Shown: positions 35,601-46,021 of the stretch, in pieces
Layout of the letters: each line of letters opens with the position of its first letter
Numbering within the stretch: position 1 is the stretch's first letter
Source of the DNA: Branchiostoma floridae
Lineage: Eukaryota > Chordata > Leptocardii > Amphioxiformes > Branchiostomatidae
NCBI RefSeq assembly: GCF_000003815.2
Contig: NC_049986.1
Span: forward strand, 11,734,706-11,798,705
Length of the DNA: 64,000 bases
Direction of reading: 5' to 3'
Notes under the pieces: model-generated
What the model was told of the DNA's origin: nothing
The model's input: the letters and a program-made list of their open reading frames with translations, nothing else
Database searches by the model: none
Made by a program: the position numbers and the translations under genes

Positions 35601-38600
35601 GTCATTCAGAAACATTTGTTCTGAATCAATGAAAAGCTTACTCTTTATATAACTATGATGGTTAGACTATGACATAAAACGTATATGTTTGCTGATGAAT
35701 AGTTACTTTGTTGAAATAATTATTGAGAAAGAAAAAACCTTCTAAAATGCCAATTCTGTTGTTATTCCAGATGACTTTAGAGCAGCTGAACCATGATCTT
35801 CTGAACCAGTTACAAGACCAGAGGAACCAGGACCAAACCCTGCAGAAGGTTAGCCATGACAAGATCAATCAAATTTCATCAGTTTAACAAGGAAACAAAC
35901 CAGTTATAATCCAGTAACTGAGTAGTATGATGTATTGTAGACCCATGTGTGATGCACAATGGAAATGATGCCAACCTTAAGTATGGGTTCCAGTGGGATA
36001 CTTAATTGCTTCAGGGGTCAAGTTACCCTTGAACTTCAGAGAACACTTAGTATCCTGCCAGGGAAAGTTTTGCACTTCTCAGAGAAGTTTTTGTTTTATT
36101 TTGAGAACATTTTTGAGTCAATCATCACTCTTAGACACTTTTAGTAAATATTTCTAAGCAGTTAAGGATAAAACCTGTAGCTTCAATTGACCCTATTGTT
36201 GTTTTAGATGCTGAAGGACAGACAGGCCCTGCCCATCTGGGAGTCAGTGGACCAAGTCATGAATGCCATCGTCAACAACTCAGTAGTCATCATCAAGGGG
36301 GAGACAGGCTGTGGCAAGACTACACAGGTAACTTACAGCCACAGGCAGGAGTTTCTTTCCGCTGTCTTATCTTACTTTGTTGTGGGACAATTTTTTTATA
36401 TTGCAGAACATAACAGATACATTTCTTCTACTCATGTAGAAACAAAATAATAGCTAAAACAAGGACCACAAAAGCTATTAATTTTGCTGTTGTTGGGTCA
36501 CTATTGTTGATTCTTATGATTTTAGAGTTGGTAACTGTTTAAAAGATGGGCTTGGATTGGAGTGTAGACTTGCCTATAACATTATAGTAGAAATGTGTAT
36601 AGTGTCGTGGGTATATTTATTTGAAACTTGTGATATAAGAAGTGTTTTGACTTGTTCCAGGTGCCCCAGTACATCCTGGATGACATGATCATGAAGGGTA
36701 AGGGTGCGGAGTGTAACATCATCGTGACGCAGCCCCGCCGGATCAGTGCCGTGTCCGTAGCGGAGAGAGTCGCGCAGGAGCGAGGGGAGGACCTGGGCCT
36801 CAGCACTGGCTACAGCGTCAGGTTTGACACTGTCTTCCCCAGGCCTTATGGAGGGATCCTGTTCTGTACTGTTGGTAAGCTCCGTGCAGATTTGCTATTT
36901 CATCCAATTTTGTCTCTAAATATATACCCCCTTTCTCCCAAATATGTGTAAGAAAATCAATAAAAATCAATATGTATGAGTGAATTGTAAGTCAAATTCT
37001 TTTATTTTCATCTTGCATTCAGTCTATTACTAGCAGTTCGAGATATGTACAACTCTTCATTTGAACTTTTTGACTTAAGACCCACAGAGGCCAACTTTAG
37101 ACCGACTACAGTTACGTATTTGTGCAATTGTTGTTGATCGTGACATCTCCGACGACAGTATTTTTAGGCCGTCTAAAGAGGAGCAAAATAGATGTGCAAC
37201 CATTCCTCAAATCACTGTGCAGCCACGTCGGACCTGGTCAATGCAACCCTTCAACCTTGCTTGTGCTCTTGTAGATTGATTGGTTGACTGATTGATTGAT
37301 TGGTTTGTTTAATGTCTTGCCTTGTTCTTGTCCCAGGTGTTCTCCTGAGGAAGATGGAGGGAGGGATGCGAGGGCTGTCACATCTGATCGTGGACGAGAT
37401 CCACGAGAGAGATCTGAACGTGAGGCTGCTGTCATAACTCCCACTCACCGTGTATCATTTGTACTTCAATCAACTGCAATGATGATGATCTCTTGTTGAG
37501 TGTCATGGACACAATGAATACATCTAACAACACTTCAACTGAGCAGCTCAAAATTGGAATGTGTTGCATGATTATTCTTCAACAATGATGGATTCATATT
37601 GCATGTAAACATAAAGAAATTTATTTAATCCTTATTTAGACTATAAATGTAAATATTATTGAGAGAAAACAGTTGTCTATTTTGCAAGGAGAATATCTTC
37701 CTCACTAGAAATTGTAATTAAATCTTGGTACAACAGAAGATGTTTGTGCTTTTCAGTCAGATTTCCTGCTGGTGGTGCTACAAGGTATGGTGAGAGCCTA
37801 CCCTGACATGCGTATCATCCTCATGTCTGCCACCATCGATACCAGCCTGTTCTCTGAGTACTTCGGGAACTGTCCTGTTGTGGATGTTTACGGCCGGACC
37901 CACCCTGTGCAACGTAAGAGGACTCTATTCTAGTACCGTATAGAAATTGAAGAAGACGATGATGAGATTTTGTCAGCCTTGTGCAAAATGTTATTCTTAT
38001 ACTTGTGCAAATTGACTGTAGAGTAAAGGAATGATACACAATTAGTCTTAAGAAAGGATAAGGCTCTCCCTGCTACTACTGATGTAAGAGTACAAATAAG
38101 TACAAATGAATGGACCTTGAGATAGGTTAATGATCCTATCTGAGAAGAGATTACCAGTAACGCAGCTTGTCGCAACTGCTACATAAGATGTACTTCTTGA
38201 TTTCCACTGCACCCTCAAAAGTTCCGGTGTCCAGTAATACTAAATTGTAGATAGAATGAACTACTGGAGGCTTTATCTTACTAAGGACATTTTGTGCCGA
38301 CACACAGAGTATTTCCTGGAAGATTGTATACAGATGACCAACTTTGTGGCTGCGCCCCAAGAGAGGAAGAAACGTAAAGAGAAGGATGATGATGATGCAG
38401 TTGGAGATGACGACAATGTAAGGCACTCTTCACTGCTTGTGTCTGTTTTATCATGGTACATTAAGGGGACAAGCCCTGTGCTACCATGTTAAGTGCCCAG
38501 GTTGACGATTGAAAGCTATTTGTCCCATTGTTTCCCGATTACTTTTGGTTCTAGAAGAATTGACTTAGGCTTGATGCTCATTTGCCAAGTGGTAGATATA

Positions 38601-41600
38601 AAGAGATTTATGAGATTTACTGTATTAACTCTTGATACTCTTTCTTTTTTGCAGGAGAACCTGAACATGGTTTGCTCCAACGAATACTCAGACCAGACAA
38701 AGAGGTCCTTGTCAATGCTCAGTGAGAGAGAGATGTCCTTTGAGCTCATTGTGGTAAGCCATTCAGTGTTTCACTGTTAAAATAACTTACCAGTATTAAG
38801 TTCTTTGGTTCTCAGTATTTAATTAATGTTAGACTTAGTGATGTTCTTTATGGATAGAAGTTATTCAGTTGATGCTGCAGGTAGACTGTAATGAGTTGTT
38901 ATATTTCCCAGGTTCTCCTGCAGTACATCAGAAGCCTGGAAGTACCAGGAGCGATCCTCATCTTCCTGCCAGGGTGGAACCTCATCTTTGCACTCCTCAG
39001 ATATCTGCAAGAACACCCAGAGTTTGGAGGTACGATATGTGTTTTGGTGTCTAGAGAAATGTCCATTTCACTTTCTACCATTGGACAATTTGTTTATTGG
39101 TTATGGCTGTGAAAAATCATCGTGCTACTCTTGAAACACATGAGATGATCTTATTGCTGTGATGATTTGCCTCTGACACCTCTTGTGTGAGTGTCACAGA
39201 CACTTTGAACACACTGTGCAAAGGACTGAGCAATAGATTTGACAATATAGTTGAAATTGGCTTTTGCGCTACACACACACTAGAGTAGGTGCCTGAGATA
39301 CACAAATGGTTGCAACCATAAACGTGTATCTAATAAAGTGTTCTACTGTTTGTGACATGGTTTTGTATTAAAACACCCAACTGTTGTATGTCTTCCAGCC
39401 TCTGGGAAGTACCAGTTGTTACCCCTGCATTCCCAGATCCCCAGAGAGGACCAACACAGGGTGTTCCTGTCTGTACCCTCAGGCATCACCAAGGTACAGG
39501 AGTCCTTTCAATATGGAGGTTCTATTGTTTTGTATTGTGGTACCTTTAAATGTTAGTTAAATATGTTATGGATGGAGCACCATGATATTTTTTTTTTCTA
39601 TTTGCTTATGGACAGACAAGTACAATGTGGTACTGCACTCAAGTTAGTAACTTATATTAACAGTGCCACATACACAGTACAGACAGAAGGTAAAGGTAGT
39701 CTTTGGACACTCACAGATGGTAAAAGTATGATATTTCATACTGGGATACGACTTGTCTCAATGCAGAAAATACTATGTATTAGCTTTCACTAGTATTCCT
39801 AGACCTTACAATGAACACTAGACATAGACATGTTGTGATGATATTGTGAACAGCCTCCTTTCAAAGGCGTGCTTGACTAATCCTTTGGCAAGTGTGCTAC
39901 GCAGTGGAGGCAGAGGAACTGGGGACTCAGTTCCGATTCAACCAGCTGTTTCTGCTGAGTTGAGCAACCTCAAGGGTCCCCACAATCTGGTCATGTAGTA
40001 TAATGAAATATAAATGTTTGCAACTCCTTCCATTAAACATCATCAATGAAGGTTTTGATGCCTAGTTCATGTTAGCATACATTGCATGATTGTAAATTGT
40101 AAATTGACATTGGACCTCTTGTTGCTAGGTGATCCTGTCCACCAACATTGCTGAGACCAGCATCACCATCAACGATGTTGTCTATGTTATAGACTCCTGC
40201 AAGTAAGTTGGCTTGTTAAATTGAAATTTCATGATACATAAGATAGAAGTAAAATCACTTGATGTTGTCCCAATGAACCTACTGGGGTAAATCACTTTGG
40301 GAAACGTCACTGTGCATTACCTATCACCATTGTGTTATGTCAGAGTTAAAATGTTTATCTGTATGTTCCAGGGCCAAGATGAAGCTGTTCACATCCCATA
40401 ACAACATGACCAACTACGCCACAGTGTGGGCATCTAAGACTAACCTGGAGCAGCGGAAGGGACGGGCAGGTCGTGTCAGACCCGGCTTCTGCTTTCACCT
40501 CTGCTCAAGAGCCAGGTTTGAAAAGTAAGCACTGTAACAGCACCTGTTATTTCTTTATAACAGATTTCCTTGTCATACTGTTTCAATCAGTGTAATTTTT
40601 GTTGTCGTATGAGCAGGAAAGCCTTAAATGCTGGCAATCATTTGAAACAGTGGTCAGGATATTTCTGGATATTTCTCCACCTTGGAAATCGTTAGCTGGA
40701 TTGCTGTGATGACCCTTCAGATGTGATGCCTGGTATAAAGGCACTTGAACGTACCAACCAAAACATTGTGACTAGTGCGGTCTGAGCACTCCAGCTTGAT
40801 GTTCCATTGTTGCAGTCCAGATTTGTTGTTTAGTTCATGTTATGCAATCTATGAATTTCCTGTGTAGCGTGTGTAGTCTAGTGGTTAGTAGCCCTCTGGA
40901 ACTAGAAGCCGTGAGTTTGATTCCGGCTGTGTTGATCAACCGACATGCATGCTACCGGAAGAGGTTACAGTCCTTAGGACAGGACATTGAGCCGTTGTCC
41001 ACTGTTCATTTTGCTTGTCGAAAAGAGCTATGGGAATTTCCCCGGTACAATAAACCTGTAAATACTGTACCTAGTGTCTGTCTTCTGTCACAACTAGTGG
41101 AAGACTAGCTCTTCAGGGAGCTGAAGTTGGATTAATATCACTTTTCTTTTCCTGTTCGTTAGGCTGGAGACCCACACAACCCCTGAGATATTCCGCACAC
41201 CTCTCCATGAGCTGTCCCTCTCCATCAAGCTGCTGCGACTGGGAGCCATCGGGCCCTTCCTGGCCAGGGCCATCGAACCTCCACCCCTGGACGCTGTCAT
41301 TGAGGCAGAGGCTCTCCTCAGAGGTGAGTCATTTGAACACTGGTGCTCAAGAATATGTAAATCTTATCTGACTCTTTGGTTTTCTCTTCATTTAAAGTTT
41401 CTTCAATTCGTTTCTTGGAAGTTACTTTATTGTCAATATTAAACTCTAAGTTTTCTGAAAATTATGTAGTAGGGATATTAGAACACTGTTTGCAGAAAGT
41501 TGTTTTGAAGTAACCTTATTGCTGTGATGATTTGCCTCTGACACCTCTTGTGTGAGTGTCACAGACACTTTGAACATGATGTGCAAGGAACTGAGCAACT

Positions 41601-44600
41601 GTATCAAAAGTTCATTATGATAATTTATAATGGAAGTAGGTTTATAATAACTGTCACACTGAGGAGATACCTGTAATAAGTAGACACTGTTGCCTGTCAC
41701 AGAGATGGATGCTCTGGACTCCAATGATGAACTGACTCCCCTTGGCAAGATCCTGGCTCGCCTGCCTATAGACCCTCGCCTGGGCAAAATGGTCATCATG
41801 GGCTGCATCTTCAGGTATGTAGACTTACAGCAGTTGTCAGGGTATTATAGTAGGGTCAAGTCAACTCTGGATTTGTCATCAGCAAGTAAACTTTCCTCCA
41901 TTGTTGCCATGATGATTTGCCTCTGACACCTCTTGTTGGAGTGTTGTGTACACTATGAACGCAACATGCAAGGGACTGAGCAACAGTTTGAGATTAATCC
42001 CCTTCAGTATAGACTAAAGCCTATATTATATCTTTACCAAAATTAGTCTTGTGGACTGTATTCATTGACAGCTTGTACTGCAGTAAGTCTTTGTTTGAAT
42101 TTATCAAAACCATTACAACTTTGCTGAAGAATGCTAGTTGTGGAGATGCCATGTAAACTGTGTACCTTAACTTGTAGCTGTGGAGATGCCATGGCAGCCA
42201 TCGCCTCCAGCACATGTTTCCCCGAGCCGTGGGAGGTGCCAGTGGAGCGGAGGCGGCTCGGCTGGGTCCACAAGTCGTTTGCCGGGAGCCGCTGTAGCGA
42301 CCATGTCGCCATGCTGATGGCCTACCAAGGCTGGGAGGAGGCACGGTCAGTCTTACACTAGTTTTTTCTCTCTATAAGAAAGCAGACCAAGTCTTTTTGT
42401 CAGTCTTATTTGTGCCTTTCTGTATCCTTCTGCATTTATCCATATAAGTAATTGAAAATTAGTTCTTCCATTTTTTCTCGAAAAGTTTAACTCATGCCCT
42501 TTCCTCATTGGCACGTGTCTCTCTTGTGTCAGGATTAGGAAACATTTGCTCTACCCTATTGGAAAGTTTGAGACTGTTATATATATTGTTAGGCCCTACC
42601 CTTTTGATGTGTTTAGACTTGCAAACAATTGTCATAGTCAATGTTATTTTTTTCCATCACCCCACAGGTCCTATGGAGAAGACAGTGAGATGAACTTCTG
42701 CCAGCGCAAGTCGCTGAACATGGCCACCCTGCGCATGACGTACGAGGCCAAGAACCAGCTGAAGGACATCCTCCAGATGGCAGAATTCCCTGAAGGTAGA
42801 TACGAAACCTGGATGGAAAAAGATTATCCTCATTGTTGCCATGATGATTTGCCTCTGACACCTCTTGTTGGAGTGTTGTGTACACTATGAACGCAACATG
42901 CAAGAGACTGAGCAACATGGTAGGATAAGGATGTCAAAAACAGTCAAAATATTAAGATGTGTATAACTATTATAACAATGCTTTGTCCTGTTTCCCACAG
43001 AGTGCTTGTTGCCACACCACTTTGACCACACAGGACCAGACTCCAAGTTAGATATGGTGGGTGTTTAACTGTTAAATATACGATAAAGTACATTTTGTAC
43101 GGTGCCTTCTATCTGTGTCTATCCACACAATGACCCTGGCCAACCATATATGGATGTGAGCTTTGAATTCAGCTAAGACCAAAAGCTGTATCTAGTATGC
43201 TTAATACTTTGCAAACCGTTAATACATTATTTACCATACCTGCCAACATAGCTACCACTGAAGCTCTCTTTCTTATTGGCATATTAAATTTTCCAGTATG
43301 TTTAGAAAAAACAAAATATTCTGTTTATAGATGTATAATTTTAATAAGGATAGTCTTTATTAACACCTAAACTCTAACATTTTCTCCAGGTGATATCCCT
43401 GCTGACCATGGGTCTGTACCCCAACGTGTGCTTCCACAAGGAGAAACGTAAGCTGCTGACTACAGAAGGCCGTGCTGCGCTCATCCACAAGTCCTCTGTC
43501 AACTGTAGCAACAGGGAACAGACCTTCCCCTCACCTTTCTTTGTGTTTGGGGAAAAGGTGAGCTTGTTAGACAAATAGCCTCCTGGCTATCCATATTTAT
43601 TTTTAGCCCTGATATTAAGTGTTGGTACTGGTATGGTTTTTAAAAAAAGAAGTTTTTTCTTGTTTGACTGGTCCAGAAAAAATGGACCTAAAATTAGCGG
43701 ACAGGAGTTTGGACTGATTCGATAATACCAAGCGTTAAAGCATTTGGGGGCTTATAAGTAAAAGAAAAATTACTAGACTGAAGTGGAAGAGAGTTGATAG
43801 TCATTTTTGCCAAGTTTCTAGAGTCAAAATTAGTTTAAAACAGAGGTAGTTAGTGTTTTTTACATGAGGATAGGATATTCAAACACCAATGGATGTTGGA
43901 TACTCCACCAAACAGAATCCTTTGTACTGAAATGGACCATTGTTCTCAGTATCGCCCATTCACATGTTTTCACAGATAGTTAGGTCCACTTTTAGGTCCG
44001 GACCTGGACCTGATCCTCTGAACCTGGACCGTACCTGTAGCTGAATTTTCTGTACTGGTACAATTGGTACAGAAAATTACCCACCCCTACTTGACATAGT
44101 TCTTACAGATGTAACCATGTTATTGAATTTGTTCACAGATCCGAACCAGAGCAGTGTCAGCCAAACAGATGACCATGGTGTCCCCTGTGCAGCTGCTACT
44201 GTTCGGCTCCCGCACAGTCACCACAAAGGAAGGGGACATCAAGCTGGATGACTGGTAGGAAACATTTTTGTCAGAAAATTACTGGAAGATTGAGACCAGG
44301 ACTTCCGTTCTTAATGGAGAGTAATTCATATCAGAAGTTGTCTTTTTGTCATTTTTGCTGTGATGTGTGGATATATGGAGTACCTGTTCAAACAAACACG
44401 TTGAACATGCAAGGAACAGTGCAATATATTAAAGATGCTTTATGAAGTACATTATACTTCAATTTAAGTCTGTTGCTGTACAGTTTCATGTTTGTTTTTA
44501 TCCTACTTGTGATATGATACTTCATAATCACTATCCTAGATTGTTATTGAAGCATTTCATTCTTATTGATGAACTATAACATAAGATTTGCAATGTTATG

Positions 44601-46021
44601 TTTATGAATTTTCTTTTTTTTTTCCATAGGATCACCTTAAAGATGTCCCACACGTCTGCGGCAGCCATGTGCGCTCTGCGACCATCTATGGACCGCCTGA
44701 TCGTGCAAGCCTGCAGCCAACCAGAGACCATCTTGGAGCCACAACCGCTCGATGAGAAGCTGATTGGCTTAATCAGGAGCCTGTCTAAGGCCAATGTTGG
44801 TCAACCAGTTAATGAGGATGGGGAGGGGTCATCTTATGCTGGGTAAGTCTCTTTGGGCTTTCTCAATAATCAATGTGAGGCAAATTAGCACATACGTCAG
44901 TTGACATTTTGCATGTTTCCGTATTGAAATATTGTGTAATATATGGAATATTGTGTAATATTTAAAAGTAGGTAGATGTAGTAAGGCTGTTAGTGCTGGC
45001 TTTTACATCAGCTCTTGTATGATAAAAGGTGGTCAGCATAACTGTTATCTGTAAGAGGTAGCTTTCTATACATAATTGTAAAAATATGCCTGAAACAGAA
45101 CCATGGCTTTGAAAATCTCCTTTTGGTCCTTCAAACACTTTAAGTCTGAATGTGCCTTATCAATTTTATAAGTCTGGCGATGAAAATGCCAAAATTGTTT
45201 TTTTGACACTTTTCAGCTCAACATATGGTGGTGACTACAGCGGTCCTCCACGCAAGAGGTACCGGTTCAACACCCCTGATGGTAGGAACGGAGGGGGGTT
45301 CCGTGGTGGTGACAGAGGCGGCTTCAGGGGGGGTCCAGGAGGAGGGGACTTCCGAGGGGGTTTCAGGGGCGGGTTTGGCGGTGGGCCACGTTTCGGTGGC
45401 GATCGGGGAGGATTCCGGGGCGGATTTAGAGGAGGATATGGTATGTGTCAACTTATAGTACTTCATAAATGATATATTGTGATCTTATGTTACTTGATAA
45501 ATGACCATGATATATTACATTGTAGATAATAAAGGAGTTATGTGCAGAACGATGCATAGAACTTCTCTTAACTCTCTTAACCTTGCAGTTGTATTTTAGA
45601 AATGGAATGAAACTGGCACACTATTCTATAATCCTTTATATGTATAATGTCAAATGTTAGACTTAACGTAGGACTTGTCAATTTTCTCTGAAAAAAAGCG
45701 CTCTAGTCATGGCTTGATTTTAAATATTATGGTGGCAAATCCATACTTCAACATACCGGTGACCAGACATTCTGAAGTGCCTACCAAAGTCTGACTTTGA
45801 GTGCAACTGTTGACTGAACATCAAAGCTTTTCCCAATGACCTGATGTTCCTGCTGGGATGAATCTGTGATGTAACCAACATGTGTCTTGTTTTCCATAGG
45901 TGGTGGAGGCGGCGGGTATGGAGGAGGCAGGGGTGGGGGATACGGAGGGGGCAGGGGTGGTGGATTCCAGCGGGGCAGGGGAAGGGGTGGATTCAGGGGG
46001 CGGCCTAGTGGGGTCTACTAG
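29617..46021 (+). CDS. DHX9: ATP-dependent RNA helicase A (DHX9), 30 coding exons, 1268 aa
   Basis: Exons: 29617-29727, 30000-30140, 30999-31113, 31658-31755, 32044-32183, 33817-33863, 33997-34133, 34676-34762, 35322-35483, 35771-35848, 36208-36327, 36661-36874, 37337-37419, 37757-37913, 38308-38417, 38655-38753, 38912-39029, 39399-39493, 40129-40202, 40372-40524, 41163-41323, 41703-41814, 42178-42345, 42668-42795, 43001-43056, 43390-43557, 44139-44254, 44630-44842, 45217-45440, 45900-46021 (3807 nt, in phase). Domains: dsRBD1 (starts [16 protein letters not shown]), dsRBD2 (about 155-265), Walker A GETGCGKT (about 403-410), DEIH (about 503-506), [11 protein letters not shown] (about 756-763), HA2/OB region, and a C-terminal Gly/Arg-rich RGG tail. 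Length and motif order match vertebrate DHX9 (about 1270 aa), a nuclear helicase that unwinds dsRNA and R-loops. Several introns carry snoRNA genes. An acidic insert ([14 protein letters not shown]) occupies the same place as in vertebrates. Confidence 0.97.
30735..30835 (+). repeat. dispersed repeat fragment (relative of 9747-9895)
   Basis: ACCAGACTGACTACGCTGG followed by AATTTGCCAGGGGAGTTTTG, the inverse of the laminin-intron copy. Lies in DHX9 intron 2. Confidence 0.65.
32184..33816. other. long DHX9 intron 5, no RNA gene accepted
   Basis: The 1.6-kb intron holds a hairpin-rich stretch at 32570-32670 and an isolated GTGATGA at 33165, but no complete snoRNA. No coding content. Confidence 0.5.
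35521..35577. repeat. 28-bp tandem duplication
   Basis: GCTCTTAGCTCTATGCT(A/G)TG followed by GTTATATT occurs twice head-to-tail in DHX9 intron 9. Confidence 0.9.
37474..37546 (+). ncRNA. candidate box C/D snoRNA in DHX9 intron 13
   Basis: C box ATGATGA (37479-37485), D box CTGA (37539-37542) and closing stem CTGC/GCAG. Inside lies a GTGTC-ATG-GACAC hairpin followed by a C'-like AATGAATAC, the same architecture as the snoRNAs in introns 17-24. A TCTCTTGTTGA stretch before the hairpin resembles the CTCTTGT(G/T) of those copies. Size 73 nt, 210 nt upstream of the acceptor. Such RNAs normally guide 2'-O-methylation. The target is not identified. Confidence 0.72.
39152..39235 (+). ncRNA. box C/D snoRNA, family copy A, DHX9 intron 17
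   Basis: C box GTGATGA (39159-39165), D box CTGA (39226-39229) and a 7-bp closing stem TATTGCT/AGCAATA. Internal GTGTC-ACA-GACAC hairpin, then a C'-like TTTGAAC. Length 84 nt. The sequence between C box and hairpin (TTTGCCTCTGACACCTCTTG) is shared exactly with the copies in introns 21, 22 and 24, while the segment just upstream of the D box varies (ACTGTGCAAAGGA here). Intronic, sense orientation, one per intron, as usual for animal snoRNAs. Target not assigned. Confidence 0.88.
39851..39987 (+). ncRNA. box H/ACA snoRNA, DHX9 intron 18
   Basis: Two hairpins. Hairpin 1: lower stem GCCTCC (39853-39858) with GGAGGC (39906-39911), 8-nt loops on both sides forming a pocket, and a 9-pair upper stem GCGTGCTTG/CAAGTGTGC with three G-U pairs. 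It is followed at once by an H box AGAGGA (ANANNA, 39912-39917). The pocket lies 14 nt before the H box, as expected for a pseudouridylation guide. Hairpin 2: lower stem GGGGAC (39921-39926) with GTCCCC (39976-39981), upper stem TCAAC/GTTGA, followed directly by ACA (39982-39984) and three final bases. Total about 137 nt. The second pocket spacing (18 nt) is slightly long. Target uridines not identified. Confidence 0.8.
40694..40796 (+). ncRNA. box C/D snoRNA, divergent, DHX9 intron 20
   Basis: C box GTGATGA (40706-40712) and D box CTGA (40782-40785), enclosed by a 12-bp stem AGCTGGATTGCT/AGCACTCCAGCT with one mismatch. Internal TGCC/GGCA hairpin followed by CTTGAAC, matching the hairpin-plus-C' layout of the neighbouring copies. 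Guide sequences differ from the intron 17-24 family. A mature RNA would be about 85-100 nt. Confidence 0.8.
40866..41100 (+). repeat. tRNA-derived SINE in DHX9 intron 20
   Basis: GTAGTCTAGTGGTTAG (A-box, from 40873) and GAGTTTGATTCCGGC (B-box, from 40913) at tRNA spacing, resembling a tRNA-Glu type head. A non-tRNA body and an AATAAA-containing 3' part follow. It sits just 3' of the intron's snoRNA. Confidence 0.7.
41519..41598 (+). ncRNA. box C/D snoRNA, family copy B, DHX9 intron 21
   Basis: C box GTGATGA (41524-41530), D box CTGA (41591-41594) and closing stem TTGCT/AGCAA. Identical to copy A from the C box through the GTGTC-ACA-GACAC hairpin and TTTGAAC. The region before the D box differs (GATGTGCAAGGAA). 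It lies 104 nt upstream of the acceptor. Confidence 0.88.
41902..41985 (+). ncRNA. box C/D snoRNA, family copy C, DHX9 intron 22
   Basis: C box ATGATGA (41909-41915), D box CTGA (41976-41979) and closing stem TGTTGC/GCAACA. Shares TTTGCCTCTGACACCTCTTG with copies A and B, then has GTTGGAGTGTTGTGTACAC and a C'-like TATGAACG. The guide segment before the D box is CAACATGCAAGGGA. Confidence 0.88.
42834..42917 (+). ncRNA. box C/D snoRNA, family copy D, DHX9 intron 24
   Basis: C box ATGATGA (42841-42847), D box CTGA (42908-42911) and closing stem TGTTGC/GCAACA. Nearly identical to copy C over the whole 84 nt, with CAAGAGA replacing CAAGGGA before the D box. The intron is only 205 nt and the RNA ends 83 nt from the acceptor, close to the spacing favoured by intronic C/D snoRNAs. 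Confidence 0.9.
43885..44095 (+). repeat. dispersed repeat (GGTCCGGACCTGGACC type), copy 1
   Basis: ACCAAACAGAATCCTTTGTA, then a TGGACCA...TCAGTAT block, and a tail CTGAATTTTCTGTAC. The same order recurs at 56745-56915 in a GPCPD1 intron. It lies in DHX9 intron 26. Confidence 0.8.
44352..44427 (+). pseudogene. decayed C/D snoRNA copy, DHX9 intron 27
   Basis: TTTGCTGTGATG at the 5' side and TTGAACATGCAAGGAACAGTGCAA at the 3' side resemble copies A-D (compare GAAC..GTGCAAGGAACTGAGCAA in copy B). The C box reads GTGATGT, the D box CTGA is lost and the middle is unrelated. Probably a dead copy. Confidence 0.45.

Follow-up and report, generated by a model that had tools for sequence, protein, structure and literature searches.

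Four introns of a DHX9-type helicase gene in Branchiostoma floridae carry putative box C/D snoRNAs with a guide complementary to helix 88 of 28S rRNA

Host gene and intronic elements

We analyzed a 64,000-nucleotide (nt) stretch of the genome of the lancelet Branchiostoma floridae (assembly GCF_000003815.2, contig NC_049986.1, positions 11,734,706 to 11,798,705; hereafter, the window). In this window, a gene for a DHX9/MLE-type RNA helicase carries an element of about 84 nt, resembling a box C/D small nucleolar RNA (snoRNA), in each of four introns, and all four elements contain an identical 20-mer, as an initial annotation of this DNA had claimed. The elements are called c1 to c4 below. The part of the host gene around them was followed over positions 38655..43500 of the plus strand. 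When 11 exons were joined by sight, with the last exon ended at 43500, they formed a single open frame of 425 amino acids. The solved structures closest to this frame were those of DHX9/RNA helicase A (E = 2e-208) and Drosophila MLE (E = 1.5e-180), with DHX36 well behind (E = 1.4e-92). The host was therefore correctly named as DHX9, and the relative order of the introns, which had been numbered 17, 21, 22 and 24, agrees with ours. The introns with c1, c2, c3 and c4 are 369, 379, 363 and 205 nt long. Each of these four introns holds one element on the sense strand of the host, and the distance from the end of the element to the 3ʹ splice site is 163 nt (c1), 102 nt (c2), 192 nt (c3) and 83 nt (c4).

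From stem to stem, the elements occupy 39152..39235 (c1), 41517..41600 (c2), 41902..41985 (c3) and 42834..42917 (c4), all on the plus strand. Exact copies of the shared 20-mer, TTTGCCTCTGACACCTCTTG, are at 39166, 41531, 41916 and 42848 on the same strand. With up to three mismatches allowed, these were the only four matches in the window (100 shuffles averaged 0). In the whole genome (513 Mb, 431 contigs), the same search gave 41 places, of which only the four in DHX9 were exact. Because the reversed pattern yielded 36 places, the inexact matches were regarded as background. The identical run is in fact longer than 20 nt: it extends from box C through the guide over 27 nt in all four copies (TGATGATTTGCCTCTGACACCTCTTGT). 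A whole-genome DNA search with c3 likewise returned four places, all in DHX9.

In c1, box C (GTGATGA) lies at 39159..39165 and box D (CTGA) at 39226..39229. Between them lie the Dʹ guide TCTGACACCTCTTGT at 39172..39186, assigned by its complementarity to large-subunit (LSU) ribosomal RNA (rRNA), a proposed Dʹ box GTGA at 39187..39190, whose place was taken from comparison with snoR1, and a hairpin between Dʹ and Cʹ at 39191..39203. The guide and box D are at 41537-41551 and 41591-41594 in c2. In c3, the guide, the Dʹ box TGGA and box D are at 41922-41936, 41937-41940 and 41976-41979, and in c4 at 42854-42868, 42869-42872 and 42908-42911.

Every copy has a box C (GTGATGA or ATGATGA, fitting RUGAUGA) near the 5ʹ end, a box D (CTGA; CUGA in RNA) near the 3ʹ end and a hairpin GTGT..ACAC. 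The letters read as Dʹ are GUGA in c1 and c2 and UGGA in c3 and c4, and those read as Cʹ are UUUGAAC or UAUGAAC. Both motifs are degenerate, the consensus for Cʹ and Dʹ being that given in PMC5389607, and they flank a hairpin in all four copies. The terminal stem is 6 bp in c1, c3 and c4 and 4 bp in c2, so that the 5-7 bp described at first was slightly generous for c2. The copies never differ in the hairpin arms GTGT/ACAC, in box D or in the letters TGCAA and GCAA; they do differ in the hairpin loop and in most of the remaining letters ahead of box D. The segment before box D had been described as different in each copy; this is true of most of its letters, but not of TGCAA.

Pairwise identity of the 84-nt cores ranged from 0.77 to 0.99. 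When flanks of 45 nt upstream and 80 nt downstream were compared, at least 24 of 200 shuffled flanks equaled the observed identity in all 12 pairwise comparisons, consistent with the earlier statement that the rest of the intron is not conserved. Since c3 and c4 are nearly identical (one difference in 84 positions) but have unrelated flanks, the unit of copying or conversion would be snoRNA-sized.

Similarity to known snoRNA families

A permissive Rfam scan of 4.2 kb gave 21 matches. The top four were c1 to c4, all to the plant family snoR1 (RF00345), with scores of 48.4 (c1), 45.2 (c2), 41.5 (c3) and 42.8 (c4) bits and E values of 2.3e-8 to 1.6e-6; the next best match had an E value of 0.038. 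RF00345 and SNORD60 (RF00271) are both labelled with clan CL00066, and a table in PMC3511168 gives the same clan label to yeast snR48. The four scores are below the RF00345 cut-off; therefore, we file c1 to c4 in the clan-level guide group (snoR1, SNORD60, snR48) and not in RF00345. They carry the guide of this group to the LSU segment GAGGUGUCAGA. Judged by these similarities, c1 to c4 are members of a known, old kind of RNA, as relatives of SnoR1, snR48 and SNORD60, a family that the initial annotation had left unnamed. Its class assignment, box C/D snoRNA, is upheld by the agreement of the boxes, the hairpin, the sense-strand intronic position, the snoR1 similarity and the rRNA-complementary guide.

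A SNORD60-type pattern had no match in the window. Matches to SNORA58 and SNORA38 at 39851-39987 (E = 0.32 and 8.9) were taken as chance, as was a match to MIR821 in another locus, L038 (35.8 bits against a cut-off of 249).

Complementarity to large-subunit rRNA

Two LSU patterns, with one and two mismatches allowed, were run over the assembly and found the same single locus, L031 (contig C4, about 9.297 Mb). This locus, a 3ʹ piece of the LSU, scores 449.5 bits against Rfam LSU_rRNA_eukarya. It reads GCAAGAGGTGTCAGAAAAG, with which the guide TCTGACACCTCTTGT pairs over 15 bp in LSU helix 88 (14 Watson-Crick pairs and one G-U), the duplex ending at Dʹ. The guide first proposed around ACAAGAGGTGTC was the correct one, and its complement in 28S sequence, which was suggested as a check, was found in this duplex. 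The helix-88 segment expected in the true 28S rRNA of the species is GCARGAGGTGTCAGA.

To extend the comparison to other rRNAs, four contigs binned with bacteria were found. Three of them (L048, L049 and L050) carry both small-subunit (SSU) rRNA and LSU, and L049 and L050 were scanned with c1 to c4. A 12-bp core of the guide, TCTGACACCTCT, was complementary to the LSU of both at the same anchor, so that the pairing beside Dʹ is longer than 10 bp with L031 and with two other eukaryotic LSUs. This core was the only 12-mer of c1 complementary to any of the 226 12-mers shared by the L049 and L050 LSUs; shuffled c1 gave such a match in 142 of 200,000 cases. Helices of greater or equal length were seen in one rRNA only and were not repeated in the other set: 17 bp including G-U (c3 and c4 with L050 LSU) and 13 bp with L050 SSU. 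An LSU pattern had no match in viral contigs. As a side observation, L048 to L051 are rDNA contigs of eukaryotes that were binned with bacteria in metagenome assemblies, and a group I intron lies inside the L050 LSU.

The CTGA within CTCTGACA was considered as box Dʹ and rejected, since it would leave a guide of 7 nt and sits inside the conserved guide.

A guide shared by the four copies on the D side was also rejected. No D-side match to the rRNAs was common to c1 to c4; the best matches differed by copy, and most were equaled by many shuffles. A D-side guide may still exist in a single copy, the strongest such matches being those of c2 and c1. The D side of c2 matched L049 5.8S rRNA over 10 bp at a distance of 7 nt from D (equaled by 0 of 300 shuffles), L050 LSU (10 bp; 3 of 100) and L049 SSU (11 bp; 4 of 100), each in one rRNA, and that of c1 matched an SSU word of both rRNA sets over 10 bp (8 of 100 and 15 of 100 shuffles). 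The region ahead of box D is probably no guide in c1 to c4. A possible internal stem joins TTTGC after box C to GCAAA or GCAAG before box D, and such a stem, we suggest, would account for the invariant TGCAA. Its length was reached by 9-13% of shuffles for c1 to c4 and 13% for the snoR1 consensus, compared with 66% for the SNORD60 consensus.

Prediction of the target residue

Residues were numbered with human G4370 as the anchor. At a fixed offset, all 14 human 2ʹ-O-methylated sites between 4370 and 4637, including the anchor (table in PMC5597630), coincided with the correct letter of L031. Within GCAAGAGG, the G that follows the two As (L031 1505) corresponds to yeast G2791 and human 4368, and L031 1507 corresponds to yeast G2793 and human G4370. 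If the four letters following UUGU are taken as Dʹ, the fifth-nucleotide rule, applied strictly, would place the target of c1 to c4 at L031 1505, that is, the G at yeast G2791/Arabidopsis G2792/human 4368. The SNORD60 consensus, CUC-GU-AUGA, is two letters shorter and selects L031 1507, in agreement with the assignment of human 28S Gm4370 to SNORD60 in PMC5597630. The elements c1 to c4 do not have this RF00271 register; since UU stands before their Dʹ letters, the predicted target is two nucleotides upstream of that of SNORD60.

A table in PMC11542601 lists Gm2792 of Arabidopsis, Gm2795 of tomato, Gm2794 of tobacco, Gm2791 of yeast and Gm2623 of an alga with the human cell empty, and places human Gm4370 beside yeast Gm2793. 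According to PMC5389607, the six-letter Dʹ box AUGUUA of yeast snR48 directs both G2791 and G2793 through overlapping registers. This hexamer appears to begin where GUGUGA (c1 and c2) and GUUGGA (c3 and c4) begin, a placement deduced from the cited sites and the fifth-nucleotide rule. By analogy, c1 to c4 may mark two residues, the second being the G at yeast G2793/human G4370.

Related elements in the same gene

A covariance model was built from the four copies and run on the window with E values up to 10, which gave nine matches. The copies themselves scored 109-116.7 bits, followed by 37468-37552 (31.8 bits, E = 3.6e-5), 44349-44430 (23.1 bits, E = 0.0046) and three matches of 15.3, 14.4 and 14.3 bits. 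Eight other loci, 68 kb in total, scored at most 15.2 bits. Therefore, the family of four within 39152..42917 stands as far as the exact copies are concerned, but two further relatives lie outside this range in the same gene. These were named c0 (37472..37548) and c5 (44349..44430); both have the orientation of the host and occupy further introns of it, 37420-37756 for c0 and 44255-44629 for c5. The background-level match of 14.4 bits, at 35644-35711, has a box C-like TATGATGG and lies in yet another intron.

The diverged relative c0 retains box C (37479-37485), the hairpin GTGTC..GACAC, box D (37539-37542) and a CTGC/GCAG stem. It lacks the internal stem described above, and its helix-88 guide is lost, being cut to CTCTTGT. 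Its D side (37525-37537), TAACAACACTTCA, pairs with TGAAGTGTTGTTG of L031 through 12 Watson-Crick pairs and one G-U, 1 nt from box D, and none of 300 shuffles scored as high. A 12-bp duplex 0-2 nt from D against the 513-nt L031 fragment was obtained with 227 of 1,000,000 shuffled D sides. We estimate the chance of the c0 duplex at about 0.1% over five D sides, and at a few percent when the other rRNAs tried are counted; with those rRNAs, the c0 D side gave no comparable match. The fifth nucleotide falls at human 4572, adjoining the listed Am4571. The human Um4620 site was rejected as this target, as the fixed offset gives 4572. If the true 28S departs from L031 at the c0 site, the duplex would be weaker; a true 28S reading TGAAGTGTTGTT there would favor the pairing, and another letter at the fifth position would weaken it. 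No Rfam family was significant for c0 (best E = 0.54), and a whole-genome DNA search with c0 found one place, c0 itself. The other relative, c5, is decayed: it has CAGTG where box D would be, and it has no guide.

A second set of elements on another contig

The pattern TGATGA-N3..30-TCTGACACCTC matched 11 places in the genome, against 3 for the reversed control. Four are the DHX9 elements, five are on contig C14 and two lack a snoRNA layout. The C14 elements (loci L043, L044 and L045, at about 4.27, 7.37 and 7.49 Mb) have boxes C and D in four of five cases; one has no box D. Four of the five match SNORD60 at 28.3-31.6 bits (E = 0.0056-0.045; cut-off 42), and the copy in L040 is unmatched. The covariance model of c1 to c4 did not detect them. 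Instead of TTTGC/GCAAA, CACAG/CTGTG stands at the same place in the C14 copies, a stem length reached by 3-4% of shuffles.

The C14 set is probably hosted in an eIF4G gene, as suggested by weak matches of nearby frames to MA3 (E = 2.4e-4 and 21.5 bits, where the cut-off is 23.2; one of four frames tried) and to eIF4G1 structures (E = 0.014). The region also resembles a duplicated gene region. The surroundings of 10 loci with near matches to the guide elsewhere were inspected. L019 and L030 have the guide core and no box C, L032 and L033 have no snoRNA layout, and all four were rejected.

Alternative explanations and significance

Taking the boxes, the hairpin, the guide complementarity, the family similarity and the host gene together, it is highly probable that c1 to c4 are intron-encoded box C/D snoRNAs whose Dʹ guide directs 2ʹ-O-methylation in 28S helix 88. 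They would be expressed and released from the spliced DHX9 introns, and the Dʹ guide UCUGACACCUCUUGU would base-pair with helix 88 of 28S rRNA. The assembled small nucleolar ribonucleoprotein with fibrillarin would then 2ʹ-O-methylate helix 88 at the paired site, the exact residue presumably being set five nucleotides upstream of Dʹ (GUGA in c1 and c2, UGGA in c3 and c4).

Several observations weigh against this proposal. A scan of the window at Rfam gathering scores gave no match, and all four scores fail to reach the RF00345 threshold of 49 bits; scans of this kind overlook the entire set. The Dʹ of c3 and c4 (UGGA) is degenerate, and the free fold of these two copies pairs part of the guide internally. 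Fold z-scores of the whole elements (-1.70, -0.65, -1.84 and -2.20 for c1 to c4), with folds differing by copy, give no support alone. The LSU patterns did not recover a functional 28S from this genome, L031 being their sole locus. In a larger stretch around it, L046, the LSU match splits in two (219.3 and 120.9 bits), and 1.2 kb on there is a diverged piece of SSU (76.7 bits); L031/L046 is perhaps a dispersed fragment or pseudo-rDNA. The dual-site reading of c1 to c4, finally, rests on yeast.

That all four copies are under the Rfam cut-off, that c5 has decayed in the same gene and that another set shares the guide core would fit intronic relics of a helix-88 guide, no longer processed, with the C14 set or an unseen gene as the working guide. 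Decay, however, would not spare just the functional parts, and all four copies agree fully in box D and over the 27 nt spanning box C and guide, between random flanks; we consider relics improbable. Even less probable is that c1 to c4 act chiefly on their host by pairing with DHX9 pre-mRNA to alter splicing. Some intronic snoRNAs are reported to influence host splicing (PMC10324135), and the presence of several copies in a single gene, each in the orientation of the host, would suit such a role, but what is conserved is the rRNA-complementary part, which plant snoR1 shares. We give equally little credence to the idea that the D sides guide modification of a spliceosomal small nuclear RNA or another RNA, with copy-specific targets. 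The D side does vary by copy, c0 has its 12-bp LSU complement there, and single matches of c2 were equaled in 0 of 300 and 3 of 100 shuffles; no match, however, is common to c1 to c4.

Beyond the helix-88 guide itself, the DHX9 gene could be a nursery of rRNA guides, a broader scenario that we find rather doubtful. A yeast/plant-type helix-88 guide, for a Gm2791-type site that the human list lacks, would have spread from intron to intron as precise snoRNA-sized copies, of which c0 lost the guide and turned its D side to a different LSU target, and c5 decayed. A SNORD60-like set in another gene would serve the neighboring residue, so that two genes share the work of one yeast snoRNA. If c0 is real, it would be a compact case of a snoRNA switching its target after being copied into a sibling intron.

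In the open literature on DHX9 introns as a snoRNA host and on amphioxus or lancelet snoRNAs, including PMC4284660, the text available gave no account of c1 to c4; many subscription journals lie outside this scope. In the available parts of papers joining DHX9, introns and snoRNA hosts, DHX9 figures as a protein partner. The host gene, the copy expansion within one gene, the altered fifth copy and the probable yeast/plant-type site in a chordate were absent from the literature searched. A new host alone is unsurprising, because PMC3511168 argues that intronic snoRNAs often move among broadly expressed hosts. If the proposal is true, a chordate DHX9 gene would host several snoRNA copies, and yeast/plant-type helix-88 methylation, absent from the published human list, would be predicted in lancelet 28S.

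Comparison with known snoRNAs

The hairpin between Dʹ and Cʹ is common to c1 to c4, one C14 copy and the consensus of both snoR1 and SNORD60, with unrelated hairpin sequences. Plant SnoR1 (RF00345), the top Rfam match of all four copies, shares the guide core UCUGACACCUCUUGU, the Dʹ register (AUGA after UUGU), the hairpin and the CUGAGC end. The lancelet copies differ in being 0.6-7.5 bits under its gathering score and in a shorter segment from box C to the guide. Arabidopsis SnoR1 is described in PMC8053127 as directed at 25S G2792 and as an apparent snR48 orthologue, without mutant validation.

The human SNORD60 host is SNHG19. SNORD60/U60 (RF00271) has clan CL00066, the guide core UUCUGACACCUC and the Dʹ-Cʹ hairpin in common with c1 to c4, whereas its consensus has no UU ahead of the Dʹ box, which shifts the target by two nucleotides. 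The C14 set resembles c1 to c4 in the guide core TTCTGACACCTC and the hairpin, but it has a third register, with Dʹ CUGA placed three letters beyond CUC. Yeast snR48, known here by description, guides the same helix-88 residues and likewise does so without a CUGA Dʹ box (PMC5389607); its Dʹ letters are AUGUUA, in contrast to GUGUGA or GUUGGA in the lancelet, and dual action is demonstrated in yeast only. A Neurospora guide of the helix-88 site is tabulated together with snR48 and U60 in PMC2780460.

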